DNA of 64,000 nucleotides from Antitrichia curtipendula (lineage: Eukaryota > Streptophyta > Bryopsida > Hypnales > Leucodontaceae). Positions within the stretch are counted from its first letter, which is position 1, and each line of letters opens with the position of its first letter. Both the position numbers and the translations under genes were made by a program. The stretch covers positions 558,001-622,000 of the forward strand of contig OX579633.1 of the NCBI GenBank assembly GCA_951230915.1, read 5' to 3'. The notes below the pieces were generated by a model that worked only from the letters and a program-made list of their open reading frames with translations, did not search any database and was not told the origin of the DNA. This document shows, piece after piece, positions 29,786 through 64,000 of this stretch.

Positions 29786-29845
29786 CCATATTCATTAAAA
29801 TGAGAGTATTTCATTGAAATGAGAGGTAAATTAAAAAAATTGAGG

Positions 29846-32564: not shown

Positions 32565-32568
32565 TTAA

Positions 32569-39162: not shown

Positions 39163-41340
39163 TGTGAGCTTCCAATTTGTCACTTGGGACTCGTAGAATT
39201 ATTTTTTTGGAAATTTGCAATTTAAAGTTAAGAAAAGTATACAAAAAGCCATAAAAAGAGTGTAGAACCAAAATAGGGTTGTGACATACCCATTACAGTA
39301 TTTGGTCTAGATTTGTGTTTAGACTTAGAATCCCACCAAACCTGGCCTAAAAATAGGTAGAAAGAACAAAACGGTTAGATCTGGAGCATTTGAGTTACAT
39401 AGCCCCCAAAGGGCTAAATCCCACCATGAATGTGGCAGTTCATGGCTAAGTCGGTCCGAGGCATCCACAACGAGGCCACTAGGTCGGGTCCTAGAGTTAG
39501 GTTTAGAATTTCCAACCCCCGATTGTTAGCATGCAGGAGCCACTGACGCAAGACCAAGCCCGTAGAGGAATCTACAACCCAAGGATGGTGTTCTAGGATA
39601 AATCCCATGCCAGGAGTCCAACGACAAAATCAATTTGCCAAGATTCCTCTATCTGCAAAAGATTCTCGCACCATCGCTAATTCAAGGAGATGGCCAATTT
39701 CATCTCCACTGACCAATTGTGTCAGGTACGGAAACGCACCTACACATCCTTCACATGACTCCCTGAGAGGTCACGTGAAAAATCCCGTCATCTTCCGACT
39801 TGCAGAAGAACCTTTTGCGGGTAGTCAACCTTGATAACCTCCAACGAGAATTTCATGGAAATTACCCAGGTTGCCAGAAAATCTCACTAAAAATTAGACT
39901 AGCTTGTTTTATGTTAATAATGCGCTCCGTGAAGTTTCACAACATTCCGATAGCGGCAAGTACCCGAACCGGCAAGATTCCTCGGAAATTAATCACGTGG
40001 CAGGGTCCCCGCCGTGTTGACCGGCATCCCGGGACCATATGATGGCGAAACTAAGTCAACCAAGAGTACTTTCCGACTCCCTCACACCTACCAGAGACCC
40101 TAGGCTATTTACATTTCTCAAAATAGGAGACCCCCAAGATCTAGGATTTTATCACGATTTGTTTTTTAAACTAAATTAGCCTACAATAGGTTTTTGGCCT
40201 CAATATGGGGGTATGGGGGTTTTGGACTAAACACGGTGATCTGGAGCCAATGGCGCAATCTTTTTGATGATCAGAGTTAAACTCCAAAGGTAGTATGTTG
40301 GTTCAGCGTAGATAGATAAAAGTAGTTTTGTAGGATTAGGACGAAAATCTTTGAAGATGAGGATGAAAATCCAAGTTGATAAGGTTACCTTAGAACTCTT
40401 GAGGGAGGAGTGGGGCCTTGGAATCCTATTTAAGGTCCCCATTTTTCTCTCTTGAACACCCCCAAATCTTGTTTTAGGTATATGGGTCCAAGTTATTTTG
40501 GATATTTTGGCGTTTGAAGCCAAAAACCTCTACGGTGTTTTTGGAGCACTTTTTGCTCCTTTTTGTTGTTGTTTTTCAAGCACTGAAGGTCTTTGGGGGT
40601 CCTACTAATCTTGCCTTGTTGCTCTTGCGTACCTTTGTTGTAAGTCAAGCAGGTGTTCCACCCCTCATGTGTCCTTTCCGTGCCCTTGTGAACTAGTTTG
40701 GGTGATTTGGGAATATTGGTGGTTCTTGTACTAACCCTAGAGTAACCCCCCATCGTACCTTGGCGATGCCGCTTTGGAGGGCCTTTAGTGTATAACCTTT
40801 GTATTTGCCACGTGGCCTTACCTTGTGTGTCCTCTTATGTAACCATTCTGACAACCCTCTTCTCATATTCTCCTTGTTGAGTGGAACCCCCTTTGGGACG
40901 GTGAAGCTTTGAACTTATAGAGTCCTAAAGTGTGTGTTAAAACAGTTTTGGCGGCGGAGCTTTGAACCCCCGGGGCACCGCGAAGTCGTAAAGTTGGTGT
41001 TAGATCCAACTTAGTGGCAAAGCTTTGACCCTCCCCGGTGTTCCGTTCCAAAGTCTAGTTTCCAAGACCTTTGTGGAAACCTCCAGAGTTTAGCTTCCAA
41101 GATTTAGAGTCTTAGTTCAAGAGAGATAGCAGGTGACTTGGGAAGTCAAGCTTGTGTGCAAAAATTGTAGGCCTAACCCCCCGCACGGCAAAGCTTTGAC
41201 CCTGTCCCTAATTTTCTAAAATCCGGTTTAAGTTTTTTTTTTGTGTGGGTTCCCCTAAGGGAACTCGAGGGAGATTGGGGGGGGGGGGGGCAGTGAGCTT
41301 GGCCAGCGTTAAGCTAGGCTGGTCCTGATTTGTATTCTTA
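39163..41340 (+). mobile_element. LTR-like block, copy 3, with leader
   Basis: Starts TGTGAGCTTCC and is the reverse complement of 12660-14531 in the same order: AATTATTTTTTTGGAAATTTG, AAAATCTCACTAAAAATTAGA, CCCCCAAGATCTAGGATTTT, GACCTTCAGTGC in reverse, and AGCTTTGA words. CCTATTTAAGGTCCCC near 40425 may be the LTR's TATA box. The 3' end is uncertain (about 41200-41340). A 14-G run lies at 41277-41290. Downstream (41.4-42.0 kb) is an AG-rich leader and then a short coding exon, so here the LTR appears to be the 5' LTR of an element running rightward. Confidence 0.55.
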
Positions 41341-42159: not shown

Positions 42160-42318
42160 ACCGGAATAAAAATTTAGAGTTAAATTTAGGAGTAAAGATT
42201 TAGAGTTAGTTTTAGGAGTAAAAAGCTAGAATTAGTTTAGGAATAAAGATTTAGAGTTAGTTTTAGGAGTAAAATCTAGAGTTACTTTTAGGAATAAAGA
42301 TTTAGAGTTAGTTTGAGG
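42160..42318. repeat. 22-25-bp satellite, left part
   Basis: Units of the type TTAGAGTTAGTTTTAGGAGTAAA alternate with ...AAAAAGCTAGAATTAG. The array stops at 42318, where the hAT element begins, and resumes at 60024. Its last 8 bases, GTTTGAGG, are one copy of the target duplication. Confidence 0.85.
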
Positions 42319-42340
42319 CATGGTTGTCATACTGTACGGA

Positions 42341-42410
42341 CGTCCGGTTCGCCCGTCCGTCCGTCCGGGACGTCTGTTAGAGGTCTCACCCGCCCGATAC
42401 AGTCAACACA
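42341..42410 (+). repeat. Subterminal GTCC-rich repeat, left end
   Basis: GTCCGGTTCGCCCGTCCGTC, then GGGACGTC and CACCCGCCCGATAC. The same series in the same orientation occurs at the right end (59958-60017), so the element ends share a direct repeat in addition to the short inverted termini. Confidence 0.75.
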
Positions 42411-42479
42411 AAGTTGACTTTATGAAACCAAAAAAGTAGGCCACGTGGACGCCACGGGGACGCCACGTGGATTTAGGAA

Positions 42480-42740
42480 CATGCAGGGCGGGGACTCCAT
42501 TGAGTGGGGGCAAGGACTCCATGGAGTGGGGGCAGGGACTCCATCCAGTAGGGGCGGGGACTCCAGACAGTGGGGGCGGGGACTCCAGTGAGTGGGGGGC
42601 GGGGACTCCAGTGAGAGGGGGCGAGGACTCCAGAGAGTGGGGCGGGGACTCCAAAGAGTGGGGCGGGGACTCCAGCGACTGGGGCGGGAACGTGAGGAGG
42701 ACGGGGCGTGGACGACACGTGTCGGGGCGGGTACTTGAGG
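42480..42740 (-). promoter_or_regulatory. GC array A upstream of the kinase gene
   Basis: Nine GGACTCC words spaced about 20-24 bp apart with GTGGGGGCGGG between them, the reverse complement of the GAGTCCCCGCCC units in the other arrays. It ends about 10 bp before a TATA box. Within a transposon end such arrays can be both transposase-binding subterminal repeats and promoter elements. Confidence 0.75.
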
Positions 42741-42751
42741 AGCGGGGGAAC

Positions 42752-42759
42752 TATATAAA
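42752..42759 (+). promoter_or_regulatory. TATA box of the kinase-like gene
   Basis: CTATATAAAGC directly downstream of array A and 192 bp before the ATG. A probable leader intron (GTGAGT at 42834 to TTGCAG at 42916) lies between. Confidence 0.7.
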
Positions 42760-42943
42760 GCGAGTCCCCGCCCTCATTTCTTTGCCAAGTCCGCGCCCTA
42801 CGCCTCACACACTAGTTCGTCCCCACGGCCTATGTGAGTGAGTTTGGTGGGTGGTGGGCTTGGCCCTCATATGTGACCCGGTTTTTTTCAAATTTTCGGG
42901 GCTTTTGTGCTTGCAGAGGCCCATTGAACAATTTCTTTTCGTT

Positions 42944-44524
42944 ATGGCGGGGGAAGGGAGTGCATCGGCGGAGAAACGTCCTATGTTTGTAGATTTAGAT
43001 GATGTCGGTGAGATGGTAATTCCATCCACGGACAACTTGATGGCCTCAGGTTCATCGAACCCTTCTTCATCAAGCCAAAAGAAACGCAAGAAAGCACTCA
43101 ATCCCCATATGCCTCCACATGAATTCATAGTTGAAGGGAGAGCAATAGTTGTGGTGTTCTACACTCGTCGCAGTACGACTATGTTGACCAGGGAGTATGT
43201 GGCGCTCAACGAAGAAGGGTACCACAAACTCACGAGGGACCTGCGAACGGAGCTGGAGTCAAAGTTTGAAGCATCTGAGAAATTCAACAATTTCTCCGAT
43301 TATTGGTTGCACCAAGACTGGCTGGATAAACAGGTGGTTGCCTTCACAACCAATATAGTGTCAAATTGGTGTTACCACATGGGGAAGAAAAAAGATGGTA
43401 GCGATTGGGACACACAAAATAAAGAGGTGGTTGCAAAGTTGAAAATCATTCAAAACTTTGCTCAACAATTTTCTTCATCACGTAAGAAAAAGCAAGCACC
43501 TTGGAAAGCGACAATTGAAGACACCATAACAGCTCATTGTGTTAGTGGAACATTCAAGTGGCTTGAAAGTTCAGTAAAAGTCATCCCCATGCCGGAACAG
43601 AGTGCCGTTGGTTCATATGGGACCGTGAGGAAGGTGATGCTTACAAAACTTCAGAGCATTCCTAGTTGGATATTTTTTGCTGGGAAGAGCTTGAAAACCA
43701 CGAATGAAAAGGAGAAGCGCCAAGGAATCATCAATGAGGCGGGCGGGTGTCCAGTGAGACATCCTGGCATCATTCGAATTGCGTACCTCCATCCTAAAAC
43801 GATGGAAGGCTACACGTTATGGTGGAATGGAGGCTCTCTAATTTCTTTCTTATCCAAATACAATTCGAAAGTAAGCGAAACATTGGATGTCGATGAGATT
43901 AAGCATGAACAAGGTACAGGGTTGACAAAAGAGGAGCTTACATGGGTTGCAACTTACCGACGGAACCGAGTGAACTTGGCACTCTCTTTGCTTGTCATTG
44001 TGGGGAAATGCCACGATGCGCAGTACGTGCACAACGACATCACTCCATCCAATATTTTGCTCCATTTTGATGATTATAAAGAGCACACGGTGTATATAGG
44101 GATATGTGATTGGGGACTTTCTAGCCGAGCTGTAGAGAAGGAGCCGTCAAGGTATGGCTTTCCCAACAAGGACATCCTAGTGAAGGAGAAGAGAATGCGA
44201 AGGTTTGTAGCCCCTGAATTGTTTTATATATACGGAGAGCAAGGTTCGGCAAATTCAATTGAGGCCATGCAAAAAATGCATTTGTATTCCATGGCAGCTG
44301 ATGCATATGCAGCCGGATGGATAGCAGCACAAATTTGGAAGGAAGAGTGGGACTCCAAATACTTTACAACGAAGAATCCAGAGCAGTATCAGAACCTCAG
44401 GATCAAATTGGAAAGCCTCGTAAAAGAGGATGTGAGTGAAAGGGCGTCAGTGCCAGATGTTCTTGACGCATTGAAGAAGGCCCCCCACTGTTGGACTATG
44501 CCAGAATGTTGTTATCGTATATAG
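42944..44524 (+). CDS. Protein-kinase-like cargo gene, 526 aa, intact
   Basis: ATG 42944 (MAGEGSASAEK) follows a leader intron; an upstream in-frame ATG at 42851 lies inside that intron. Residues 1-220 form an unrecognised domain with a basic stretch (KKRKKA) and a Trp-rich segment. Residues about 220-480 form a protein-kinase fold: glycine loop GSYGTVRKV (from G223), lysine in FAGKSL (K248), catalytic loop VHNDITPSN (D365, N370), metal-binding CDWG (D389, in place of DFG) and APE (423-425). The catalytic loop is HND rather than HRD, so the activation arginine is missing, but Lys, both Asp and Asn are kept, so activity is plausible. The frame has no stop although neighbours do, which hints at selection. 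Its presence inside a DNA transposon is unusual. The substrate is unknown. Confidence 0.85.
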   Translation: MAGEGSASAEKRPMFVDLDDVGEMVIPSTDNLMASGSSNPSSSSQKKRKKALNPHMPPHEFIVEGRAIVVVFYTRRSTTMLTREYVALNEEGYHKLTRDLRTELESKFEASEKFNNFSDYWLHQDWLDKQVVAFTTNIVSNWCYHMGKKKDGSDWDTQNKEVVAKLKIIQNFAQQFSSSRKKKQAPWKATIEDTITAHCVSGTFKWLESSVKVIPMPEQSAVGSYGTVRKVMLTKLQSIPSWIFFAGKSLKTTNEKEKRQGIINEAGGCPVRHPGIIRIAYLHPKTMEGYTLWWNGGSLISFLSKYNSKVSETLDVDEIKHEQGTGLTKEELTWVATYRRNRVNLALSLLVIVGKCHDAQYVHNDITPSNILLHFDDYKEHTVYIGICDWGLSSRAVEKEPSRYGFPNKDILVKEKRMRRFVAPELFYIYGEQGSANSIEAMQKMHLYSMAADAYAAGWIAAQIWKEEWDSKYFTTKNPEQYQNLRIKLESLVKEDVSERASVPDVLDALKKAPHCWTMPECCYRI

Positions 44525-44849
44525 TATTTAGTTTTTTTACTTTTTGTAGCTTAGCATATAATTCAGGCATAGAAGGTAAATCATCCTCATAGAGGACCAT
44601 GTGTATGTACTTCGCAATTGCCGAACACCTCATAAATATATGAAGTCGGATGCATTGTACATTCAAAATCTCATGTGAATATATTAACCTGCTATGTTAT
44701 TGTTCTTTCTCATTGCATGTTTATGAGTTCTATGAATTGATGATAAAACTTTTATAAAAATAGTGAATGCAATAGTTTGGTATAAAAATACATACACTTT
44801 ATCTTTTCACTATGTCTATGTTTTACAGTTTTAGAAGTTAATGAAGCCC

Positions 44850-46130
44850 CCCCAAAATAAAATAAATGATCCAACAAAAAAAAGAATAACATTGAAGTAC
44901 ATTGGGATAATTTTAATCATGAACACAAAAAAAGGTTCAAAAAAATTAAAAATTATAAAACAAAAAAAAGAAAAGGAAAGGGAATGATGGAACCCAAAAA
45001 TAAGATTAATGGCTTTGAGTTGAGGTGGAAGAACTTTAGTAAATTAGAAAAAAATAAAGTAGGGAAAGGAAAGATTGAACGAATAAAGCTAAACTATGAA
45101 TTCGAATAAAATAGTCTTCTCACTTAATGAACAAAAACAAAATAGAAAATAGAATGTTTGAACAAAAAAAAAAAAAATAACTATGAGTTGGGATGGGAGA
45201 GTTTTAGGAATGAAGCGAACAAAAAAAGATAATCATCCAAGCCAAAAGGAATGGCATAGAGTTGGCATGGGAACTCCTTTGTTTATTAATGAAAAAAAAA
45301 ATAGGAAAGGAAATCATGGAACAAATCCGAAATGGCTTGGGGTTGGTATGGAATTATTTTGTGAGAGACATAGACCCACAAAAAATAGTGTGTCAAAGTG
45401 ATTTCAACTAACACCCCAAAAAATTTACCATTTAGTTCGGATAGATTTGCGTTACCACAAAAAGTAAATGGAATTTTCTTTAGATGAAAGAGCTTGGCTA
45501 ATAAAAGCAAAAAATGAAATTAATAGGAATGATCATTCAAAAATAAATGGCCTCGAGTTGGGATGGAACAATTTTGCTAATAGCGGGAAAAAAAAATCAT
45601 TCCACCTTACACAAGTGGCATTGAATTCAAATAATTTTTTTTGGTAATGATGCCCACAAAATAGGGAAGAGAATGAAAACACCAGAAAAATTATGGCAAT
45701 CACTTGAAATGGAAGTGTGCTTTAAAAATCAATGTCTAAAAGGGGAGATGGAGTGACCAAAGCTTTAGAAAAGCATACCAATTTATTTTAGGATTTTTAG
45801 CGGGGGGAATTATTTTTATGGACTTAAATAATCTAACATTAAAAGAAATATGAATGGTGGAGTGCTTTCTTATATGGAAATGATTTGGGTGTCACTATAA
45901 AATAATGTAACATCCAAAAAATCTATGGAATAGTGGAGTGATTTGGACATGGAAGTGGTTTGGGGGTTACAAACTTATAATTAAGCAATTTAACACCCAA
46001 AAAAAATATGGAATGGTGGATTGATTAGGATATGGAAATTATTGGGGTGTTAGAGTGATATGATCTAACATTAAATCTCAATATGGACTGCTAGAGTCAC
46101 TTAGAACATGGAGTAATGTAGAAGGCTCAA
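44850..46130 (+). repeat. AG-rich tail block 1
   Basis: Degenerate repetition of words such as AAATAGGAAAGGAAATGA, GGCATTGAGTTGGGATGG and GAGTTTTAGGAATGAAGC at about 80-90-bp intervals. Related blocks lie at 49500-51190 and 53100-54080 in the same orientation. It follows the kinase gene directly and may be an old satellite or a spacer copied with each gene module. No coding potential. Confidence 0.6.
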
Positions 46131-46139
46131 AAATCACTC

Positions 46140-46410
46140 ATCTAAGGGCTGGTTCGCATTTCTACAGTATTTCTTTACATGGGAATATTTTTAAGCTCAT
46201 CCTTGAAACCAAGAAAAATTGATGAGGAATGTAGCCCAATCGGTTTCATATTTTTTTAAACATTATTGAATTAATTATAAATTTTCAAAGGAGATGTATC
46301 CTAGGTCCCTATTTATATTCTTACGTCCTTCATATTGCAATTCTAAAGAAAAATGGGGATAGCAAAGACAATGATTGGCTCTTGTGATAAAGAATGTTTT
46401 TTTCCTTCCT
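46140..46410. mobile_element. Truncated MITE, TAAGGTAGT family, copy 3
   Basis: AAGGGCTGGTTCGC, TTTTCAAAG and CAAAGACAATGATTGGCTCTTG match the interior of 18574-18987 in the same order, but terminal repeats are missing. It inserted in, or was carried by, the hAT element. Confidence 0.6.
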
Positions 46411-46571
46411 TCCTTTTTGTCTTTTGAGGTCAATTTGAAAACTGCATCATGTCCATTCTACAACCACTTATAGGGACAGTTCTTAATGCCAAAACTCTTT
46501 TCGAGCCTTCTACCTTAGGAAATGGAAATATGTCTAAGCACATTAACTTCGTATATTTAAATCATGTCCGC

Positions 46572-46770
46572 GCCCACTCTCTGGAGTCCCTGCCCCACTC
46601 TCTGGAGTCCCCGCCCCACTCTCTGGAGTCCCAGTCCCACTCTCTGGAGTCCCCGCCCCCACTGTCTGGAGTCCCCGCCCCCACTGTCTGGAGTCCCCGT
46701 CCTCTCTCGGTGGAGTCCCCGCCCCCACTCGGAGGAGTCCCCGCCCCAACTCGATGGAGTCCCCGCCCTG
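46572..46770 (+). promoter_or_regulatory. GC array B upstream of the RING gene
   Basis: Nine GGAGTCC words with CCGCCCC spacers, about 20-22 bp apart, ending about 20 bp before a TATA box. Opposite in orientation to array A, same as arrays C and D. Confidence 0.75.
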
Positions 46771-46788
46771 GCGTCCCCCAGCTGCAAC

Positions 46789-46796
46789 TATATAAG
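46789..46796 (+). promoter_or_regulatory. TATA box of the RING gene
   Basis: ACTATATAAGGC, 136 bp before the ATG at 46925. A GTGAGC soon after, as in the other two modules, may start a short leader intron. Confidence 0.65.
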
Positions 46797-46924
46797 GCCG
46801 TCCCCGCCTCATTTGTCCCCGCCCTGCATACTCTCAGCCTTCCATCTTTTCATTGAGCTGGTTGTGAGCGTTATGCGGGGTCTACTTGATTGCCACGTGG
46901 AGGATTTCGCTTTTTTCTACAAAA

Positions 46925-49222
46925 ATGGATACACCACCAAGAATGACCAAGGAAGAACGAGATAGGACCCGACCACGAGCCGGAAACAAACATCGCAAGC
47001 GACTACATGTTCTACGAAACCCTGACAAGCTTGCATTCAGGGGGTGGAAGGGCGTGCTTGAACCATGGACATATGATGACTGCGCCAATTACATTGAGTG
47101 GTGCTACATAGACAAGTTGTTCCCGGAAGAGCGACACAACTGTCACAGACGCTTCCACAAGGCAAATTTAAAATACTGCTTGGACGAAGAGTTTACAAAC
47201 CGATGCATTGAGGTGTACCAAGTGTTGTATGCTCTCTCAAACGTCATACGCAATGAAGTGCAACTTTTCCTTGCACGAGGGGTCTATGCGGAGCTGAAGT
47301 TGAACAAGACAGTGGATTGGTCAACTTTGAAGCAAATGGAAGAAAATGTCAATATTCCTACTCCAGCAAATGGATTCATTCCAAGGGGGGTAAAAAGATA
47401 CCCGGAAGGTGGTCTAGGGAAAACAAATACGCAGGTTCAAGCACCACGAAGATATGACACTGAAGACTCATCTACGGACGACGACTCAGATGGATCTCGT
47501 GTACCAGTTGTAGTCAGCCATAGAACTCAACTACTACGAGCTAAAAAGAGGAAGGCTTCGCGTTAAACTGCTGAGGTTTTACACGAAAATGTTGTGGATG
47601 AACAGGTGCCACCTATTGACGAACCAGTGGTAGGAATTGTGGATGTTACAGCTGCTACAAACCGAATCCAGGGTTTGTTGATTGAAGTGAATGAGAAGAA
47701 TGAGGAATTGCATTCTTTGTATAATGATGTTAACAAAATGAGAGAAGACATGCAAGAGAAGGACAACATTATCAATCAACAACAACGTGAGATGGAGGTA
47801 CTTCGGCACGCTCTTGAGGCAGCAACATTGGCCAATCATGGTCAAGATCCACGAGGGGAAGCGCAAGGGCCTTCAAATAATTCTCAAATTCCATTGGAAT
47901 CTACAGAAGTTGGTGCAACAATGGATACTCAGGATGATTCTTTGTCCTTTGGAGAATTACCCGCAAATGTAGGTGCAGTAGAGCCAGTGGACCAAAGCAT
48001 CCAACTAACGGACGCGCTTGCAATGAATTTGACATTGAAAAATCAATTGCGTGCATTGATGGAGCAGTATTACCAATGGAAGCTGGCATGTGTCTTCAGT
48101 GTTGACAGGACTAGGCAAATGGTGGAGGAATTCAAAAAAATTGACCACAATTACGGTGCACACAATCAAGAGAGGGTTTTTGGTTTGACATCGTGGGCCC
48201 TGGTGGATGATCATTTCAACATGGATGAAATGGCAACCATTGACATTGCTGGTGGACAAACAACCATCGACTGGTCCAAACATGATTGGGATTTCAAGAA
48301 TGAAGTTGGCTCTGCCGTGGACCATGAAGGCAATCCATTACTACTGTGGCCAAACCCTTCAACCTTCGTACACGATGGAACTACATGTCCCATTTGCCTT
48401 AATCCATTTGGCCCGGAAGGTGGAATGCACTTAGGCACGTGTGAACATTTGTACCACCCATTCTGCCTAATTAGCTTGATGATTGTCCGCTGACGTTGTT
48501 CACTATGCAAGGCTCCTTTCCATAAGCGCTTGTATGAATTGTTTGGATTAGTTCCCTACATGCCACCGCTTTGGGAATTCAATGCTGAAAATGCCCCTGA
48601 TCATTCTCAGAAGTGGGGAACAGACTTGGTGTGGAGTTGGAAATTGAACATCCATTCGTTGGGCAAACAACAACTTTGTACCGAATGGGGTTGGGAAAAA
48701 GATCCGGCTCAAATTGTGGAGGTGTGCCACCACTTGGTTCCATTGAAGGACAACTTTAGCCAAGGACGACGGAATTTCTTCTTCCAATGCTTCAATGGGC
48801 ATTGGAATGAGGCACAAGAATACTTCCAATTTGGACCTCATCCTCTTGGATGGTTGTGGGGCGTTGATGGAGTTCGCATTACTAACGACCAGGGGATGCG
48901 GAGGGGGGAAGACATTGACATGCCAGACCCTGCTGAACTTGCACAACTATCGGAGTCAGAGTGGCGAGAAACCTTTCGAAATGATGGGATGGACTTCTTG
49001 TTGGAACAACATAGCCCGGGAACTCTCCAATGTCTTCAAAGCCTCAAGCAATCACAAATATTGAAGGCTCTTTTAGAGGAAGACGGACCAGCGAGGAGAA
49101 CTCGATCCGCAGTTCGTAGACTTTGTTTAGGAACAGATGAAGACCTTCTAATTCACGCCGGGACACATGACAATGAGGCTGGACCAAGTGGCAGTGCAAG
49201 TAGTCCAATGAACATGGACTAA
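46925..49222 (+). pseudogene. Coiled-coil/RING-H2 cargo gene, 765 codons, two internal stops
   Basis: One frame runs from ATG 46925 (MDTPPRMTKEERD) to TAA 49222, broken by TAA at 47564-47566 and TGA at 48491-48493, with no frameshift. The N-terminus (1-210) has many Trp, Cys and His and a basic tail (RAKKRKASR). Residues about 240-300 are a strong coiled coil (EVNEKNEELHSLYNDVNKM). Residues 488-535 form a RING-H2-like finger: CPIC, TCEH, LYHPFCL, then RCSLC, i.e. C3H2C3, with the TGA between the sixth and seventh ligands. The C-terminus has several Trp-rich motifs and an acidic end. The signature YHPFCL and the coiled coil are shared with the exon at 2211-2767. RING-H2 proteins are usually ubiquitin ligases. 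Both stops fit C-to-T changes (CAA, CGA), so loss is probably recent, unless the transcript is spliced or recoded. Confidence 0.75.
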
Positions 49223-49499
49223 GTATAGTTTTGAGTATAGTTTTGAGTGTTTTAGCTAGTGAGCTTAGGTTTTCTTAGAAGACTTATTTTCCTAGCACTA
49301 TAATATTATATAGGCTTATATACTTTCCTACTTTGTATTACACTATGCATATGAAATATATTTGATTTTGTTTTGAATGATTTTGCCCAAAGTGACTTCA
49401 TTTATTTTTTGCATGTACTCATTTGAAATTTGAATGGATTTGTGGACTTCATACATATTAAAATTATTTATACCATGAAATGAAATGTCATTGAATTGG

Positions 49500-51190
49500 A
49501 GTACAATTCATTCCCAATTTCCACTCAATGAATAGAAGTAGGGAAGGTTGGACGGACCACGAAGGCACGAAGTGGCCCGAACTTGAAATTAGGGGAAAAA
49601 ACGCTTTTCAAATGTCATTAATGCATTGATGGAAATATATATATGCAAAGGAATGATGGAACTCCCCCCCAAAAGGGATTGAAATAGGTAAAAATTCACT
49701 TGCAAAATAGGCAAAGGAATGATAGAGAAAAGCAAAAAATAGGGAAGTAATTACCTACTTAAAAATGAATGGCATTTAGTTGGGATAGAATAACGTGACA
49801 AATGAAGCCCAAAAAAATTAGAATGGGTTTAGAGAATACAAAATTTAAATGGCCTTTGATTGAGAATTTTAGATGGAGCAATTTTGCTAATGAAGCACAA
49901 AAAAAGTAGGAAGGTAAACTCAATGCCAAAAATTGGCATTGAGTTGGAGAAAAATTAGGAAGAGAATAATAATGCCATTTAGTTTTTATATAACTTGGGA
50001 TGTAACAATTTTGCTAATCAATCTAAAAAAAATTGGAAAAGAAATGAATCCAAAAAATTAGGAAAGGGAAAGAATCCCCCCCAAAAAGGAAAGGGAATGA
50101 ATCCCAAGAAACATTTGATAAGGGAATGAATCCCAAAGAAATAGGAAAGGGAATGATATACAAAAAATAAAGGGCATTGGCCATTGGGATGGCATGGGAT
50201 AATGTTGCAAATGAAGTTCAAATAAAATTAGGAAGTAAATGATATACCCAAAAAAAAGGCATCTATTTGGGATACAATAATCTTGCAAATCACTAACAAA
50301 AAATAAGAAGGGCTTAGGTAATACAAAAATTAAATTATTTAAATGGCCTTCGGGCTCATGATGGAATGGAGCCATTTTGGCATTTTGCTAATGAATTTTA
50401 CAAAGATTAGGAAGGGAAAGAAATGTAAGTGCATTTTAAATGTTGCTAATAAAAACAAACAAATGTGAAAGAAATATGAAACAAATATTGTTTCACATTA
50501 CCTCTTATGTCATATGAAAAATGGGAAGTGAATGGATAGACTTCAATTTCGTACCATAAAGAAAAAAATTTAGGGAATCCCTTAGGATGGAATAATTGTG
50601 CTAATAAATAAAACAAATAGGAAAGGAAATAAGCAAAAAAAAAATACTTACCGTTGGATTAAACAATTTTAGGAATTAATGAAGAAAAAAAATAGGAAAG
50701 GAAGTGAGTTGGATGAATAAATATTGGCATGGAGTTCACATAAAAGAGTTCTATGAATTAATGAAGAAAAAAATGGTGTCTTTGAGTTGGGGACTTGGGG
50801 TGGGAGAACTTCAGGAAATAAGCAAAAACAAAATAGAGATGGAAATGATTCAACAAAAAAAGATGAATTGAAAATTGGGATGGAAGATTGTTAGGAACAA
50901 AATAGAAAAAGGAATGATTCAACTAAACCAAAAAAATTAAATATAATTTGGGATGGGAGAGTCTTACGAATGAAGCATCTACAGAAAAAGAAGACAAAAT
51001 GATCCAACCCCAAAAGAATGCCATACAATTGACAAGTTGGGATGGGAGACCTGTGCTAATTCCTGGAAAAAAATAGGAAAGGGAATGATGCCCCCCAAAA
51101 AAGGACAGTGACTTAGAATGGAAGACTTTTAGGAATGAAGCCCGAAAAATTAGGAAAGGAAATGATGGAATTAAAAATTGCAGTTGCATA
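49500..51190 (+). repeat. AG-rich tail block 2
   Basis: Same word set as block 1 (AGGAAAGGGAATGA, GGATGGGAGA, TTTTAGGAATGAAGC), directly downstream of the RING gene. Short frames on the complementary strand (Phe/Leu/Ser-rich) are by-products. Confidence 0.6.
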
Positions 51191-51427
51191 TTGAAGGCCT
51201 AGAATTTTAAATAACTCCCCTACTATTTCTTTCATTTCAAATACAATGCAGTTTTATCCTTTTATCTAGTACACTACATTTACTAAATATTTCCTCAAAG
51301 TGTTCTAAACATTTCCTAAATCAAAGAATTTACATTGTTTTTTACAACCTAAATGATATGTTTGTTCAAAGTAGTTTGAAGTGTTAGAAGTAGTTTGAAG
51401 TGTTAGAAGAAGTAAGGAAAAACATTT

Positions 51428-51780
51428 CTCACCACAACAAAGGAGACATCTTCTTCCATGGATTTTCTTCCAAATCTTAGGCCATGGACCTCTTTATTCG
51501 GCATCTTGCTTTCATTGTCTTGTCAGAATCCAAAATAAGTTGTTGAGGCTAAATTAATGCTTCCCACTCTCCAAGGAAAAGGGCGGTTCAAGGATGTCGC
51601 ATTTCAAAGTCTTGCTTCCTGTGCTGGACGAGTTAGTCCCCGCCCTGGAGTCCCCGCCCTGCCTTCGAGTCCCCGCCCTGACTTCGAGTCCCCGCCCTAG
51701 AATCCCCGCCCTGACTTCGAGTTCCCACCCTTATTTGAAGTCCCCACCATGGAGTCCCCGCCCTATTGTACAGTACCCTC
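51428..51780 (+). promoter_or_regulatory. Orphan promoter module
   Basis: 51428-51640 is a close copy of 54098-54305 (shared CTCTTTATTCGGCATCTTGC, TTTCATTGTCTTGTCAGAAT, AGGATGTC), followed by seven GAGTCCCCGCCC-type units. No TATA box or gene follows. Instead there is transposon debris. It looks like a duplicated promoter whose gene was lost. Confidence 0.65.
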
Positions 51781-53099
51781 CAAAAAGTCTTGCAACCCCA
51801 TTATGAAGTCCTTCAAATTTTCCTTTTTAACTCCATTTTAAGAACATACTATGAAAAGTATCCTATTAAATCTATTGCTTTATGGAACCTTCACCAACAT
51901 ATGAAATTTCAATGTCTAAAAATAGAAACTCCATTTTTGGTGAATTATTTTATTTATTTTTCACGATATTACATAATAATTAATTAGAAAATGTGTATGA
52001 TGATTTTTTAAGATCTGATTGCGTATATATTTAGGAAACATCATTGTTCACATCTTTCATATTACAAAGATGCACACTATGTAGGTAAATTTTTTGTCTA
52101 TTTGGCTTTAATGTATTTTGCAATTTCCTTTCATACATGTTCAAGGCAAAGGTCATGTATTCAAAAACATTTGAATAAATATTGTCAAATAGGATATCAT
52201 TAGGAAGCTATGGTATTGTAGAAGCCTACTATATCATGAATTTTACAGTATGTCTTGCTGACTAGCAACGACTTTGCAACAAAGTGTTACACCTACTACC
52301 ATCAAGTACTACCACCTTGAGCTGCTATCTTAGCTTTGATTTGGTTTGGCATCGTAGAAATTGACTTTTGAATACTTTCTTGAGGTATATCCTTGCATGC
52401 CATATTCACTAATGTCCACATTTAGTCATTGTTGTAGGATCTACATCTTTTTTGTACTCGATCTTTGACTTGCTTCTATAAATTCTCTATAGGATTAAGG
52501 TCAAAAGAATTTGGTGGCCACTCAATGAATTTTACATTATGTCATGGTGCAAAGTTGACCAACATTGTTTAGAACTTCACAAGTTTGCTTATAGAACTTC
52601 TAACAACATCATATATACAATATTTTAGACAAACATTAATTTTTTCTCACAAAACTTCTAGGCTGTCTACAAGCAACAATCACTAGAAGCATGCATGCAC
52701 TAATGTTGATCCTCTCAACCGCAAAACCGGTTGAAATCCACTACCTATGATCTTCTACAATGAAATTTTCAAATTAGCATTGTCCCTTTAAATTTAGCTT
52801 AGTGTTTTCAAAATCAACCACCTTTCACAAAGAAAGATTTTTCTAAGAAGTGGAATGAGTTACAACAAGGTGCATGACTCACCTAGTTTGGGGCAAAAAA
52901 TCTCAATCAAATATCTAAATTTACCTACCATGAGTTTGATTTGTAATCAAACTACTCGGATGAGAACTAGACATGGGGTTGCAAGAGTTCTTGGAGGGTA
53001 CTGTACATTCAATTAAAAAAGAGTCCCTTGTGCCAAGTATTCCAAAAAATGAATCCCTTTACATGAAGAACAAACTATAACTTGTAACTTCTCATTGTT
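51781..53099. other. Inserted debris between modules
   Basis: 51830-52070 resembles 33000-33260, and 52300-52570 is a Tc1/mariner remnant on the minus strand. The rest is AT-rich and unassigned. Confidence 0.4.
52300..52570 (-). pseudogene. Tc1/mariner transposase remnant
   Basis: Minus-strand translation gives APxHNVKFIEWPPNSFDLN then PIENL, followed by a stop where family members have Trp, and KQVKDRVQKRC; after another stop comes an Ala/Lys-rich end. The WPxxSxDLNPIEN motif around the last catalytic Asp/Glu is characteristic of Tc1/mariner transposases. At least three stops and no N-terminal part remain, so this is a dead C-terminal piece lodged in the hAT element. Confidence 0.8.
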
Positions 53100-54080
53100 C
53101 TAAGACAAGAATGAAATAAAAAATCAATAGGAATATGAATAATGGATTAAAAAACAAATGGCATTGAGTTCGGAACTTCGGATGGAAGAATTTGTTTATG
53201 GATGAAGCAAAAGTGATAAGAAAGGGAATGATTCAACAAATCAAGAATGGCAATGATTTAGGATGGAAGAGTTTTTGGAACGAAGCAAAGAACAAATATA
53301 GGAAAGGGAATGACTAAATAAAAAAAGATTGGCATAGACTTGGAATAAAAGAGTTTAGGAATTCAAGAAGGAAAAAAATAGGAATGTATATAAAAATAGA
53401 GAATCGAATGATTCTACATATAACTATTGGCATGCAATTGGAATTAAAGAGTTTTAGGAATTAATGAAGCCAAACAAAATAGGAAAGGGAATGGTGGAAC
53501 AAAAATAAAATGGCATTGAGTTGAAAACAAAGTGCTTAAGGAGTTCATGTAGCCAAAAAAACTAAGGGGCATTGAGGTGGAATGGAGGAATTTTAGAAAT
53601 GAAGCAGAAACAAAAACGAAAAAAAAGAGAATGATGGAACAAATAAATTATGGCTTTGAATTGAGGTGGTAGAACTTCAAGAAATAAGCAAAAATGAAGT
53701 AGGAAAGGGCATGATTCAACAAACAAAGATCGGCATGGTGTTGGAAGAATACTACAAAAGAGACTTGCTAAGTTTTGAAGCAAAACAAATTAGAAAAGGA
53801 GATCATTCAACAAAACAACCCAAAAAATATGAATTGGGATGGGAGAGTTTTAGGAATGATCCAAATAAATAGGGAAAGGAATGATGGAACCAAAAATGAA
53901 CATTTGGCTTTGATTTGAGATGGAAGAGTTTTAGGAACAAAATAGAAAAAAGAATGATTCAACCAAAAGAAAAAAAATTAGAATAAGTTGGAATGAGAGA
54001 GTTCTAGGAATGAAGCCCAAAAAAAAGGAGAGAGAAAGATCCGACCTCGAATGAATGGCACAAACTTGGGATAGGAGAGT
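53100..54080 (+). repeat. AG-rich block 3
   Basis: Same word set as blocks 1 and 2, ending where the 54098 copy of the promoter-flanking duplication starts. Confidence 0.6.
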
Positions 54081-54097
54081 TTTCCTAATACCTTTCA

Positions 54098-55040
54098 TCA
54101 CAACGAAGGGGACATGCTCTTCCATGGAGTTTCTTCCAAATCTTAGGCCGTGGAGCTCTTTATTCGGCATCTTGCTTTCATTGTCTTGTCAGAATTTGTT
54201 GAGGCTAAAATTATTGCTTCCCCCGCTCTAAGGAAAAGGCAGTTGAAGGATGTCAAGCACAAGTGCATTTCAAAGTCATGCTTCCTGGGCTGGACGAGTA
54301 CGTCCCCGCCCTGGAGTCCCCACCCTGCCTTCGAGTCCCCGCCCTGGAGTCCCTGCCCTGCCTTCGAGTCCCCACCCTAGAGTCCCCGCCCTGCCTTCGA
54401 GTCCCCGTCCTGGAGTCCGCGCCCTGCCTTCGAGTCCCCGCCCTAGAGTCCCCGCCCTGCCTTCAAGTCCTCGCCCTGACTTCGAGTTCGCGCCCTGACT
54501 TTGAGTCCATTCCAGGGAGTCTGAGATTGAGCTGCGCTCCCTCAAGTTCCTCCATTTGTGTGAATTGTCCGCCCCAGAGTCCGCGCCCTGCGTCCGCGCC
54601 CTAGCACTATCCATTCAGCGAAAACATTGGGGAGTGAAAGCCATTTTCTTTGCCCACGAATTTGGGGGCGTGACGACATTTAATGTTCCTCTTTTTCCAT
54701 GAAAAGGAGGGACACAATCTTCCCAGACCATTAAGGATGGCGAAGGTCAACGTACTTTTCGATGCATCCCCATGAGCACACCTGCATTTCTGTACTGGAG
54801 TCGCGCCCTGGAGTCCGCGCGTTCGAGTCCCCGCCCTAGAGTCTCCGCCCTGTCTTCGAGTCTCCGCCCTGGAGTCCCCGCCCTGTCTTCGAGTCCCCGC
54901 CTTGCCTTCGAGTCCCCGCCCTGGAGTCCGCGCCCTGCCTTCAAGTCCCCGCCCTGCCTTCGAGTCCCCGCCTTGCCTTCGAGTCCCCGCCCTGACTTCA
55001 AGTCCGCGCCCTATACTTTGATGACGAAGACGTCCGCGCC
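54098..55040 (+). promoter_or_regulatory. GC array C upstream of the transposase
   Basis: After a 200-bp segment shared with 51428-51640, GAGTCCCCGCCCTGCCTTC units run from 54300 to 54610 and again from 54795 to 55015, separated by about 180 bp of unique sequence. Units alternate GGAGTCC and CGAGTCC. It ends about 15-40 bp before a TATA box. Confidence 0.75.
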
Positions 55041-55055
55041 CCCTAAACTGCTAAG

Positions 55056-55063
55056 TATATAAA
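55056..55063 (+). promoter_or_regulatory. TATA box of the transposase gene
   Basis: AGTATATAAAGG follows array C and precedes the ATG by 268 bp. A GTGAGT at about 55141 may start a leader intron. Confidence 0.65.
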
Positions 55064-55323
55064 GGAAAGGAAGACCCAGCATTCCCCACATTTGTCACCT
55101 GGCCTCTATTTCTTGGACTTCAATTCATTTTGAGCTCCTTGTGAGTCTACTTGGGTGGCAGATGGCCCTAGTTTGCTGCTGAGGTGATGTCAAAATCAGT
55201 TCAAGCAGTGGAGTAGCGCTAACTGCTGTTACTGATACTGTGTTTGGTATATCTTGGATCCTTTTAACTTCAATATAAAGGAGGAGGAAGACGGAAGAAA
55301 ATATCCTTGGATTGTTGAACGCA

Positions 55324-57591
55324 ATGGCAAGTCAAAGGAAGCAGACCAAGGAATGGGAGCCGTGGCTTCAGTTTACGGAGAATGGGGTTAAAGTGACTTG
55401 TGTTTTCTGTGCTCAGACCTTCAGTTACAAACGTGAGCGTGCTTTTGCACACTTTGGATATGGCTCCAAATCGGAGAGGTCAATTTGTCGAAGTATGCCT
55501 CGTCTAATGCGACATAGATTTGCCAATTGTGCAGGATTTGTCCCGCTACGAATCGATGTCGGGGACATGTATGAAGGAGAACCAATTCAAAGTGCGCCAT
55601 CTAGAGCAACTCCTCTTGCAAGTTCAAGTGAAGCCACTGAAAATGAGGTGACGGGTGGGATCAATGGTGGAAGAGCGGAAGAAGGGGCAAACGTTTCAGA
55701 AGGAATTGATATTCTACAAACGTCAAATAGTCTTGCTAGATCCAATTCTACGAGATCTGGATCATTACGTCAACAACGCATGGCGGACGCATTCAACATT
55801 GCAAAGAGGAAGGAGTTGGATGAGAAGTGGGCAAGTTTTTTCTATGAAGCAAATGTGCCATTTAATGTGGCAAGGCATCCAGCCTTCATTGAAGCGGTGA
55901 GGGCAACCTCAGTGGCGAAGTTTGAATACAGTCCACCTTCTTACCATCAATTTAGGACTAATTTGATTGAACCGAGGAGGTTGCAAATTGAGAAGCAGAT
56001 TCAAGAGAAGGTTGGATTTGCTGTCAAGCACTACGGGGGGTCGATATGCACCGATGGTTGGGATGATGTCAATCGGAGACCCCTCATGAATGTGATGATG
56101 TCATGCCCCACAGGTGATGTATTTTTGGGGTCAATTGATACTACCTCGCAAAAGAAAACCATGCGCTACATATCGGACCAAATGAACGTGTACATTGAGA
56201 AGGTGGGTCCCAAATATGTAACACAAGTGTGCACAGATAATGCAGCAAACATGCTTGGCGCATTGAAGAACATCACTAACACATACCCGCATATTTTTGC
56301 GCAAGGCTGCATGGCACATGCACTAGATCTCATGTTGGAAGACTGGGCCAAAGTCCAAGAATTTTCCGATTTAATTGCCAGGGCAAAAAGATTGTACCAA
56401 TACATTCGAAACCATCATGCGACCATGTCGGTTTTCCGCGAGTTGAGTCTGAATCTGCAACTCGTAGTGCCTAGCGAAACCCGCTTCGCTTGTAATTTCC
56501 TCATGTTGCAGCGATTGGTGAAACTCAGAGGAGTCTTAAAGCGGTTGAATAATCACCCACGTGTTCTAAATTTCTTTGATACCCTAAGGAATGAACAAAA
56601 TGGACCGCAAGCAGCTACCGCTTCACGTAATGTCAAAAGAACCATTGAAGATGTGGCTTTCTGGCAACGGTGTGTGAATTACGTGTACATGACTAAAGAC
56701 ATATTGAAGGCTTTGCGTGTGTTTGATGGATGAGAACCAGCCATGGGTCGGGCGTGGCTCGTAATGCACAATTTGCGAGGGCATGTGTTTTCTTTAAGAG
56801 AACCACCTTTCAGCTTACGTGATGACCTAGCAGTCATTTTGGAAGAATCTTTCAGTGCAAGATGGCACATGGTTTTTGAAGATACACACTACGCAGCGGC
56901 CCTTTTGAATCCATACCTCTTGGATAACGTGGGGCTCAGGGAAGATCGAACTGCCCTACGTGCATTGTACAGAGTCATCCGCAACATGATGGGGAACCTG
57001 GGTGTCAATTTTGATGATGTGATGGCGGAATTAACAGAATTCGAGGAGGGTATTGGACCCTACAGTCCAGCTGAGACACCCAACATCCGTGCGACACAAA
57101 TGCTTCCCCACCAATGGTGGCACAGGGTTGGAGATCGGGCTCTTTCGAAAATTGCCGTGCGTGTTTTATCCCTCACGTGTTCCGCCAGCTCCTGTGAAAG
57201 GAATTGGAGTATGTATTCCTTTGTTCACAATAAGATCCGAAATCAATTGGCCCTTGAAAAGGCAGAGTCCCTGGTATATATTTATACCAATAGCCGTGTA
57301 CTTCGCCAACGACCAAGAGCCGATCCAGTTTGTTGGTATGATGCGAATATGTACTCAGAGGATTCTGATCCAGATGCCCTTGGACCGATCCCGGTGAATG
57401 AACGCAATCGGGAATTTGACGCATTGCAATCAGAGGAAGAAGAAGAGGTTGATGGGGAAGCCAACCGAGGAGCTCAAGAGTATCCGGCAAACCCAGATCT
57501 TTGGAGGCAAGGAGCCGATCACCTCGAAGAAGCGCGGAACTACTATGGAGATGCTGATGATGGAGAGGGAGGAACTCCTTCGTGGTCGTAG
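55324..57591 (+). pseudogene. hAT transposase (DUF659 type), one internal stop
   Basis: A 755-codon frame from ATG 55324 (MASQRKQTKEWEPW), broken only by TGA at 56731-56733. Residues 10-60 are a BED-like zinc finger (C26, C29, H43, C55). Residues about 220-340 match the DUF659 region: SICTDGWDD (D244) and CTDNAANM (D305), the first two catalytic acids, then CMAHALDL, the C-x2-H motif. The C-terminal dimerisation region has SASSCERNWS (E625, third catalytic acid), followed by RNQLALEKAESLV. An acidic tail follows. The full triad and domain order are kept, so the ancestor was functional. The stop fits CGA to TGA. The enzyme would cut and rejoin the element ends in the nucleus, producing the 8-bp duplication seen. 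Confidence 0.88.
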
Positions 57592-58873
57592 GGGACCACC
57601 ACCACCAAATCCTCGTCGTAGTCTTTCACCTCCACTTCCTCAAAATGAAGGGGTTGTAGAAGTCCCAGCTTTGTCGTCTTCTTTGGAGACCGACAATCCA
57701 AATGACGATAACGTTGATGATGGTATTTCCCGCAACAACAACGACGATGATGACAACCTCCCTCCAGGAAATGGCGGCGGAAATGGCGGTGGAAATGGAA
57801 ATGGTGGTGGAAATGGAAATGGTGGTGGAAATGGAAATGGTGGTGGACATGAAAATGGCGAGAGAAACAGGGGGAGGAATGCGAATCCAAATCATGGAGG
57901 ATCTTCTTACAATCGAGATGGCAATACACGCCCTACGGGAGTGGAACCAGCAACTCGTAACATTAGAGCTCTAGAAAGACAGCATGATAGAAACGTTAGA
58001 AATGCAAGAATGCCACGCCCTTTTGCAAGAAATCAACCGGCTGGTAACATGAGAAGGCCTTTTGATCCAGAGCATGTGGACCATGATGATGTTTTTGCTT
58101 TTGTAGAACCACCCGAAGACATTGCCCCTGTACCGGCTCCAGTTGCGGGCCATCCTGCTATTTCTGAACATGGTACACAAGTGCGACATTCCCTAGATCC
58201 ATCTTCAGAAACAATTTCCAATGCCATCCAAAGACCTTCTCAAGAAGGATTAGGCTCAGTGGGAAATGTTGATTTGACTCTGCAAAGAGTTTCACGTGGT
58301 AGACCACCTGTGGCCCCTCGGTCCTCCGTTCATCATGAAGTAGGTCAATATCAACAAGCCCGTGGACGGACGAGAGGCCATGGTAGAGCTGCAGGCCGTG
58401 GAGGGAATACAGGCCGAGGACGAACAGAAGATCTGCATATTGGAGAAGCATCATCGCCAAGGCATGCTAATCGTTCACCCCTCGGAATTGGAGCAAGAGA
58501 TCCAAATAGGGTGATAGAACCGTTCCTAAGTACATACGTACCAGGACCTAGCCGGTCAACTCCGGCATTTGTTGTTCGAACAATTCCAGGTGGGCCTACT
58601 ATAAATTCTGATGCAGAAGACCCCAACGCACAACGACACAAGAGGTTGAAGCGCAAACGTACTCATGGCCAAACAACTATAGAGCTTCGAAATGAAAACT
58701 CGGAAGTTGAGGAACATTGGACCACCGACAGTGGTGAAGCAGAAGATGAATATGACAGCAATGAAGATGCCAATGACGAGGCACCAGAGGATGATGATGT
58801 TGTTGTTCGAGATGCTAATGCAGCGAATCCAAGTGCCCAAGAAGTTCGTAGGTCGAGTCGTTTGAATAATTGA
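57545..58873 (+). CDS. RGG/Gly-rich acidic protein overlapping the transposase end
   Basis: An open frame shifted by +1 from the transposase. It is open from 57398; ATG 57545 (MEMLMMEREELLRGRRG) is my choice, overlapping the transposase by 47 bp. It encodes about 442 residues: a Pro-rich start, a GNGGGNGNGGG tract (about residues 80-105), RG-rich segments (GRTRGHGRAAGRGGNTGRGR), a basic patch like a nuclear signal (RHKRLKRKR), an acidic stretch (EDEYDSNEDANDE) and a terminal RRSSRLNN. RGG regions usually bind nucleic acid. It may be a separate protein, or the original C-terminus of the transposase now split by a frameshift or joined by splicing. The sequence alone does not decide. Confidence 0.6.
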   Translation: MEMLMMEREELLRGRRGPPPPNPRRSLSPPLPQNEGVVEVPALSSSLETDNPNDDNVDDGISRNNNDDDDNLPPGNGGGNGGGNGNGGGNGNGGGNGNGGGHENGERNRGRNANPNHGGSSYNRDGNTRPTGVEPATRNIRALERQHDRNVRNARMPRPFARNQPAGNMRRPFDPEHVDHDDVFAFVEPPEDIAPVPAPVAGHPAISEHGTQVRHSLDPSSETISNAIQRPSQEGLGSVGNVDLTLQRVSRGRPPVAPRSSVHHEVGQYQQARGRTRGHGRAAGRGGNTGRGRTEDLHIGEASSPRHANRSPLGIGARDPNRVIEPFLSTYVPGPSRSTPAFVVRTIPGGPTINSDAEDPNAQRHKRLKRKRTHGQTTIELRNENSEVEEHWTTDSGEAEDEYDSNEDANDEAPEDDDVVVRDANAANPSAQEVRRSSRLNN

Positions 58874-59276
58874 GGTTATTGAGTTGCATCGATGGTAGAT
58901 CTCGGATCTTTAAGAGTTGAAGACAATTGTAGCAATTGGAAGAAATATAGACGAGAAGCCAAAAAAATGTTTTGGATAACCTATGAGAAACAGAGAAAGT
59001 GAGCGTATTTTGAAAGTATAGATTCATTGTATTGATATTGTACTTTGCAATGCATGAATTTTATAAACTATTTTGGTTATCACAAACATTGCAGCCTACC
59101 TGTATTTTTTTTGTGTATTTTGTATTTGATGGGCCTCCTGGAAACCTTGGTGGGGAAATCATGTAAAATACATTCCAGTTACTGGGTTTTTTTAATGCAG
59201 TGGGGTCTCCTATTTGTTCCGAATTTTTTTTATATATATATATTGTAGAACACATAAATTTAATCCACCATTGCCC
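58874..59276. other. 3' region of the last cargo gene
   Basis: No further coding sequence. AT-rich, probably the 3' untranslated region and spacer before array D. Confidence 0.4.
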
Positions 59277-59870
59277 GTCCGCGCCCTCCCACTCACGTTC
59301 AGGTCCGCGCCGTACCTGAAGGAGTCCGCGCCCTAACGCGCTGAAGTCCGCGCCCTGCTTGAAGGAGTCCGCGCCCTGACTGAAGGAGTCCCCGCCCTCA
59401 CTGTCACACTGAAGTCCCCGCCCTTCTTGAAGGAGTCCGCGCCCTGACGCGTTGAAGTCCGCGCCCTGACTGAAGGAATCCGCGCCCTAACTGTCACAGT
59501 GAAGTCCCCGCCCTTCTTGAAGGAGTCCGCGCCCTGACGCGCTGAAGTCTGCGCCCTGACTGAAGGAGTCCGCGCCCTGACTGTCACACAGAAGTCCCCG
59601 CCTTGCTTCGAGGAGTCCGCGCCCTGCTAGCCGAAGTCCGCACCCTGCTTGAAGGAGTCCGCGCCCTGACGCTCACACTGAAGTCCCGGCCCTGATTCGA
59701 TGAGTCCGCGCCCTGAATGAAGGAGTCCGCGCCCTGACGCTCACACTGATGTCCCCGCCTTGCTTGAAGGAGTCCGCACCCTCACGCGCCGAAGTCCGCG
59801 CCCTGACTGAAGAAGTCCCCACCCTAACGTCCGCGCCCTGACTGAAGAAGTCCCCGCCCCTGGATCCAGC
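59277..59870 (+). repeat. GC array D near the right end
   Basis: About 25-30 units of 20-22 bp, mostly GAAGGAGTCCGCGCCCTGAC, with TGAAGTCCCCGCCC variants. Together with array A near the left end, which reads the opposite way, it forms inverted subterminal arrays, as hAT transposases often need. No gene follows it, so a promoter role is unlikely here. Confidence 0.8.
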
Positions 59871-59939
59871 TGTCCAAGCTGACGTGTCATTGAAAAAAAT
59901 TCCACAACTTTGAGAAATTGAGGCCGTCCAGTTGGTCCG

Positions 59940-60023
59940 GACCGTCCGTCCGTCCGTCCGGTCCGGTTTGCCCATCCGTCCGGGACGTCCGATGACCCTA
60001 ACTCGCCCGTTATGACAACCTTG
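59940..60023 (+). repeat. Right end of the hAT element with GTCC tract
   Basis: CCGTCCGTCCGTCCGTCCGG, then GTCCGGTTTGCCCATCCGTC, GGGACGTCC and CGCCCGTTATGACAACCTTG. The last 13 bases are the inverted terminus; the preceding part is a direct repeat of 42341-42410. Confidence 0.8.
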
Positions 60024-60340
60024 GTTTGAGGAGTAAAAATTTAGAGTTACTTTTAGGAGTAAGAAGCTAGAGTTAAATTTAGGAGTAAAGATTTAGAGTT
60101 AGTTTTAGGAGTAAAAAGCTAGAATTAAATTTAGGAGTAAAAATTTAGAGTTAGTTTTAGGAGTAAAAAGCTAAAGTTAAATTTAGGAGTAAAGATTTAG
60201 AGTTAGTTTTTAGGAGTAAAAAGCTAGAGTTAGTTTAGGAATAAAGATTTAGAGTTAGTTTTAGAAGTAAAAATCTAGAGTTAGTTTTAGAAGTAAAAAC
60301 CTAGAGTTAGTTTTAGAAGTAAAAAATTAGAGTTTCCTGT
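60024..60340. repeat. 22-25-bp satellite, right part
   Basis: Begins with the second GTTTGAGG (60024-60031) and continues the array interrupted at 42318, with units such as TTTAGGAGTAAAAAGCTAGA and AAAGATTTAGAGTTAG. Confidence 0.85.
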
Positions 60341-63993: not shown

Positions 63994-64000
63994 TGGCTTC

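Follow-up and report, generated by a model that had tools for sequence, protein, structure and literature searches.

Within a 64,000-nt stretch of contig OX579633.1 of the Antitrichia curtipendula assembly GCA_951230915.1 (positions 558,001 to 622,000; in the following called the window, whose own numbering is used throughout), we interpret the segment 42319-60023 as one giant DNA transposon of the hAT superfamily, inserted as a single unit and carrying its own kinase, RING-H2/coiled-coil and transposase genes. We assign this interpretation a probability of roughly 80%. The segment comprises 17,705 bases, bounded by inverted ends and a direct duplication. The kinase and RING genes appear to be integral to the element and not trapped in it, because they share with the rest of it a private motif and private intergenic repeats, and because they lack separate boundaries.

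The boundaries of the element are formed by the following features.

42311-42318, no strand: left target-site duplication GTTTGAGG, 8 bp, perfect
42319-42331, plus strand: left terminal inverted repeat, 13 bp, CATGGTTGTCATA, matching the right end at 12/13 positions
60011-60023, minus strand: right terminal inverted repeat, 13 bp, TATGACAACCTTG, matching the left end at 12/13 positions
60024-60031, no strand: right target-site duplication GTTTGAGG, 8 bp, perfect

Both flanks consist of a satellite with 26/52-bp periods that belongs to the same family on each side. When the flanks are joined and one 8-mer is removed, the satellite runs on uninterrupted. A first-pass annotation of this DNA had proposed the 13-bp ends, the perfect 8-bp duplication and the restored satellite, and the coordinates and the joining of the flanks confirmed all of them. 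The sequence GTTTGAGG occurs three times in the window (30664, 42311 and 60024), and adjacent satellite units mostly have GTTTTAGG, CTTTTAGG or AATTTAGG at the position of the duplication. That an odd 8-mer variant is common to both flanks favours a true target-site duplication. An 8-bp duplication and short terminal inverted repeats, two traits by which hAT elements are recognized, are thus both present.

We searched the whole window for end pairs with arms matching at 12/13 or better, an 8-bp duplication and a spacing of 0.5-25 kb. Two pairs were found, 42319-60023 and 24681-30608, the latter with AT-rich arms; 20 locally shuffled windows gave one pair in total. A looser scan with 11/13 arms and 8-bp duplications returned only the outer ends within the element, and 0 and 4 pairs in two control stretches of equal length. 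Because of the second pair and the control pairs, statistics alone do not make the terminal pair unique; the remainder of the case for the boundaries is made by the satellite and by the private motif arrays beside both ends. Matches to the end sequence with up to three mismatches number 61 in the window against a chance expectation of 59.6. The best lone match beyond the two ends lies at 16136-16148 with one mismatch, and such matches are present at chance level.

The ends and the three genes have a sequence motif in common, GTCCSCGCCC. It occurs in 55 exact copies within the element and in none in the remaining 46,295 bases, with a shuffle expectation of 0.02 for the whole window. If one mismatch is allowed, the counts are 83 within and 4 outside. 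The copies are clustered into arrays next to the left end (on the minus strand), next to the right end (on the plus strand) and ahead of each of the three genes; a further array lies at 51.6 kb.

42486-42688, minus strand: left subterminal array of ~22-bp units with GTCCCCGCCC, 6 exact copies, also lying upstream of the kinase gene
42752-42760, plus strand: TATATAAAG box of the kinase gene; two exact copies of the motif come after it, at 42764 and 42789
46566-46768, plus strand: GTCCSCGCCC array preceding the RING gene, an inverted counterpart of the left subterminal array at 86% identity
46789-46797, plus strand: TATATAAGG box of the RING gene
51635-51765, plus strand: GTCCSCGCCC array, which with its flank (51429-51765) is 79% identical to 54095-54445
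54302-55041, plus strand: GTCCSCGCCC arrays preceding the transposase gene, with 16 exact copies
55056-55064, plus strand: TATATAAAG box of the transposase gene
59277-59859, plus strand: right subterminal GTCCSCGCCC array with 18 exact copies, in the opposite orientation to the left array

The promoters resemble each other beyond the arrays. Of the four plus-strand occurrences of the string TATATAA[AG]G in the window, three immediately follow the arrays of the kinase, RING and transposase genes. Alignment of the core promoters of the kinase and RING genes scored better than 1000/1000 simple shuffles, and the kinase-transposase and RING-transposase alignments each scored better than 999/1000.

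The intergenic regions are also related to each other, since a degenerate AT-rich repeat family is common to the kinase-RING gap and the RING-transposase gap.

44827-45387, no strand: AT-rich repeat family in the kinase-RING gap
50573-51170, no strand: second copy region of this family
53118-54083, no strand: third copy region of this family

Blast searches with three gap pieces yielded 26, 33 and 37 matches within the element and 2, 0 and 0 outside. Both outside matches stem from another repeat, a dispersed one located at 46.1-46.5 kb. Using nhmmer with one AT-rich repeat unit, we found three places, all within the element. The dispersed repeat itself (46112-46517) recurs in the window at 18572-18987.

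The first-pass annotation had named separate boundaries of the cargo genes as an observation that would speak against a multi-gene element. A scan of the element for 11/13 arms with 6-9-bp duplications found none around the kinase or RING gene; it returned the outer pair and one nested element.

51769-53005, no strand: nested Tc1/mariner-type element, 1.24 kb, terminal repeats matching at 32/40, with a decayed transposase on the minus strand

We presume the superfamily of this nested element from its DLNPIENLW-type motif. Portions of it have matches of about 70% at 33.0-34.7 kb in the window. A scan for exact 12-bp arms found no inner boundaries, though the outer ends, matching at 12/13, would also escape it. 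With 5-bp duplications and 11/13 arms there were 14 pairs within the element, compared with 5 and 45 in the controls.

The transposase gene lies next to the right end, in two frames.

55324-57591, plus strand: hAT transposase gene, main part, with DUF659, hAT dimer domain and D244/D305/E625; in-frame stop at 56731
57398-58873, plus strand: open reading frame (ORF) in a different frame, its later part being the transposase C-terminus (the "RGG protein") according to the C-termini of relatives and tblastn

The Pfam scan assigned PF04937 (DUF659, E 1.4e-36) and PF05699 (hAT dimerisation, E 1.2e-7, passing the cut-off) to the product. The alignment consisted of 23 of the 61 listed matches plus the window. 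Among the transposase rows with a residue at the position, and with the RGG-ORF row excluded, D244 was kept in 22/22, D305 in 24/24 and E625 in 24/24 (numbered from Met-1). The transposase profile matched the Hermes transposase weakly (E 0.027) over the stretch holding the catalytic E. At the N-terminus there is a BED-like Cys pair near residue 26 with later Cys/His residues; Pfam gave no BED match at E <=1.

We considered the RGG ORF as a separate cargo gene but rejected this reading: 10 of the 61 listed transposase relatives match its later part with their C-termini, and tblastn alignments of three relatives pass through the transposase in one frame and continue in the RGG ORF in a second frame. 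Those relatives that measure about 1,000-1,200 amino acids extend beyond 57591 into this ORF. With the stop at 56731 and the change of frame, the transposase gene is broken twice in the present copy. There are at least 61 protein-database matches to the transposase, with a best identity of 75% among those listed. The closest named protein among them is from the moss Ceratodon purpureus (38%), and the transposases of angiosperms and Chara are further removed. A quick tree of 62 rows, in which the position of the long Chara row is unsure, placed the window and three relatives in a group (support 100) inside a Ceratodon-containing clade of 35 (support 100). From these affinities a bryophyte is the probable host.

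The kinase gene follows the left array and has an open frame.

42834-42916, plus strand: possible intron in the 5′ untranslated region of the kinase gene, GT...AG, recognized by eye from the sequence
42944-44524, plus strand: protein kinase gene, 526 amino acids, open, with a helical N-terminal domain and a kinase domain, catalytic residues kept

In an alignment of 22 rows (21 of 41 matches plus the window), the ATP-binding Lys was present in 22/22 and the catalytic Asp365 in 21/22, with DWG in place of the usual DFG in 21/21 rows with residues there. The predicted model was good (predicted local distance difference test, pLDDT, 82.3; predicted template modelling score, pTM, 0.77) and matched solved kinases across the kinase part, with a best E of 5.3e-8. 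A search of solved structures with the kinase profile at the strict cut-off of 1e-8 found none, and Pfam scans placed the helical domain (~59-200) in no named family. Foldseek with the same model matched 28 viral models at E <=0.001, including giant-virus kinases. Scanned four times, with just the kinase or with one of three alignments as query, the IMG/VR viral contigs gave no relative. In the GTDB collection, four loci on bacterial contigs matched over 32-60 residues around the catalytic loop at 35-44% identity, and we take them to be ordinary bacterial kinases. The best identity among the 41 protein-database matches is 89%, and none of the 41 is a plant-named protein. One of them is catalogued in a Bacilli genome bin.

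The RING gene is interrupted by stops in the present copy.

46925-49222, plus strand: RING-H2/coiled-coil gene, interrupted by in-frame stops at 47564 and 48491; 765 codons ahead of the terminal stop

Relatives of its product combine a conserved stretch at the N-terminus with long predicted helices and a RING finger, whose ligands include six Cys and one His that are invariant in 24/24 rows; the last position is H in 19, C in 3 and another residue in 2. Pfam zf-RING_2 was found at E <=0.01 in 22/25 of them. The RING stretch of the window itself scores under the Pfam cut-off because a stop cuts it. The predicted model of the protein was poor (pLDDT 61.9, pTM 0.29), and a structure search with it returned RING fingers only, none at E <=0.001. 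At least 31 protein-database matches were obtained, with a best identity of 88% among those listed; the only named one among these is from Riccia sorocarpa, and it is weak (38% over 10%). Profile comparisons of the kinase and of the transposase with the RING protein detected no common domain.

Relatives of all three proteins therefore exist (41 for the kinase, at least 31 for the RING protein and at least 61 for the transposase), mostly on short contigs from metagenomes, SRA-type data or ENA. With respect to the gene content proposed in the first-pass annotation, the hAT transposase with D244-D305-E625 is corroborated by its Pfam domains and the conservation in the alignment, the kinase-like gene by its domain match and kept catalytic residues, and the RING/coiled-coil gene by the zf-RING_2 matches and invariant ligands of its relatives, though its frame is broken here. 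The RGG-type protein, listed there as cargo, is instead the C-terminal part of the transposase, split off by a frame change. The giant multi-gene hAT of that annotation consequently stands in its length of 17.7 kb and its kinase and RING genes within one pair of ends, but without RGG as a third cargo gene. The broken RING and transposase frames and the nested Tc1/mariner-type element are additions to what that annotation listed. That there is a whole lineage of such elements is plausible, judging from this one copy.

A mechanism can be proposed on this basis. Most likely, the transposase would bind the inverted GTCCSCGCCC arrays near both ends through its putatively BED-type N-terminus. By analogy with hAT biochemistry, in particular that of Hermes and Ac, the bound transposase would then pair the ends and move the whole unit by cut-and-paste, leaving 8-bp duplications. 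The transposase, or a host factor reading the motif, probably also co-controls the three genes, because the same motif lies upstream of each. The kinase and the RING protein are most likely accessory factors that would act, for example by phosphorylation and ubiquitin transfer, on the transposase or its level, or on the host or its surveillance. The present copy is probably not autonomous, as its transposase and RING frames are broken; since its ends are intact, it could be moved in trans.

The interpretation as one giant hAT insertion has to be weighed against others. An ordinary single-gene hAT could have received the kinase and RING genes later by nested insertion or capture, as composite cargo, which would make them passengers of one copy or subfamily. 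Nested insertion did occur here, as seen from the Tc1/mariner-type element at 51769-53005, but no boundaries surround either gene, both have motif arrays in common with the ends and the transposase promoter, and the repeat family of the gaps is unmatched outside the element. Both are, moreover, members of diverse families in which the active-site residues are conserved, and named plants are missing from the 41 kinase matches. We consider such a later acquisition unlikely; most likely, the kinase and RING genes are not randomly captured host genes. It is far less probable that the ends and the duplication pair by chance, or come from two distinct elements inserted in the same satellite, with ordinary host genes between them. 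Two pairs in the window do pass the 12/13 and 8-bp test, and short matches at the ends arise more easily with satellite on both flanks than in unique sequence. However, the shared 8-mer differs from most satellite units, the joined flanks restore the satellite, inverted arrays of the same private motif stand just inside both ends, and the transposase sits between them. The Foldseek matches to giant-virus kinases would suit a decaying endogenous virus or virus-like element with a borrowed hAT transposase and viral kinase and RING genes, but they extend only to the kinase fold in general, and the matches to solved cellular kinases are better. Together with the empty scans of the viral contig collection and the lack of capsid or polymerase domains in the three genes (Pfam scan), this makes a viral origin the most improbable of these explanations.

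Several points count against our interpretation of a single giant hAT element with integral kinase and RING genes. It is based on one copy, and the linkage of the three genes is known from 42319-60023 alone. After a capture of the genes, recombination inside a single element could have distributed the promoter-type motif. The RING and transposase genes are broken, so that activity is not readable from the present copy, and binding of GTCCSCGCCC by the transposase is a prediction. The 14 pairs with 5-bp duplications, a chance-level number, leave room for an inner element that makes short duplications, and with 11/13 arms and 8-bp duplications one of the control stretches produced as many as 4 pairs.

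The window contains further repeats and remnants outside the element. Directly to the right of the satellite lies a retroelement remnant with a zinc knuckle and a weak integrase match (61582-64000). A small ORF on the minus strand (2116-2856) encodes a RING-like finger with a zf-RING_2 match under the cut-off (E 0.01). There is an inverted pair of 1.46-kb repeats with 90% identity (13087-14531 and 39163-40616), a set of three related ~1-kb repeats with 71-74% identity, one of them inverted (23994-24965, 30310-31274 and 31655-32588), and a tandem array with 40/80/160-bp periods (903-1562). Rfam and tRNA scans of the window found nothing.

hAT elements are in general small and carry one gene, and Ac/Ds and Hermes each have a single transposase gene. 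With these two, the element shares the 8-bp duplications, short ends, subterminal repeats and a DD(E) transposase with a dimer domain. It differs from Ac and Hermes in its length of 17.7 kb, its three genes and a transposase of the type of about 1,100 amino acids with a long C-terminal extension. Ac is 4.6 kb long (PMC3260210), and the BED domains of Hermes bind the transposon end (PMC10368747).

The nearest named system is ToxhAT of fungal wheat pathogens, with the giant KDZ and EnSpm elements of algae also close precedents. ToxhAT is 14.3 kb long and contains a hAT-like transposase, several other genes and nested transposons; its ends are 74 bp long without an identifiable target-site duplication, and it has been termed composite (PMC6737239). 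It resembles 42319-60023 in its terminal inverted repeats, hAT-like transposase, further genes and nested elements. It differs in its fungal host and in its other genes, which are ToxA, Patatin-TPR, MFS and others, with no kinase or RING gene in the parts described. In Ectocarpus and other algae, giant transposons of the KDZ, EnSpm and Sola-1 groups exceed 10 kb and often have extra transcribed genes; nested insertions are fixed within families, and the transposase is often broken, implying movement in trans (PMC12477816). They are like 42319-60023 in being of the cut-and-paste type, in length above 10 kb, and in their extra genes, nested insertions and broken transposase. Unlike it, they belong to other transposase superfamilies, and hAT is represented there by only 128 copies outside the named giant families (PMC12477816). 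Fungal Starships are giant cargo transposons too, but use a tyrosine recombinase; in place of that enzyme we found a DUF659/hAT transposase (Pfam), and the likeness is an analogy only.

The first-pass annotation had also suggested that the element might be undescribed. A hAT with kinase and RING genes was not found in the open-access literature searched, a scope outside which most subscription papers lie, and the available part of one review (PMC6431247) does not mention "hAT". The literature searched does not contradict the suggestion; a hAT-like element with cargo genes, ToxhAT, has been described from fungi (PMC6737239).

If our interpretation is correct, the hAT superfamily too would build multi-gene mobile units in a land-plant genome, here visible as a clean 17.7-kb insertion with two integral accessory genes. 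The motif shared by the ends and the promoters suggests how such a unit may hold together, in that only genes with the transposase's own binding arrays would be expressed with it. The Ectocarpus paper connects giant elements with a long haploid phase of the organism (PMC12477816), and a moss-like host would fit this pattern. We regard it as an even bet that there is a bryophyte-centred lineage of giant autonomous three-gene hATs, in which a kinase and a RING ubiquitin ligase are standing partners of the transposase and all are switched by the end motif. If so, this would be a transposon that runs its own signalling and protein-turnover module.

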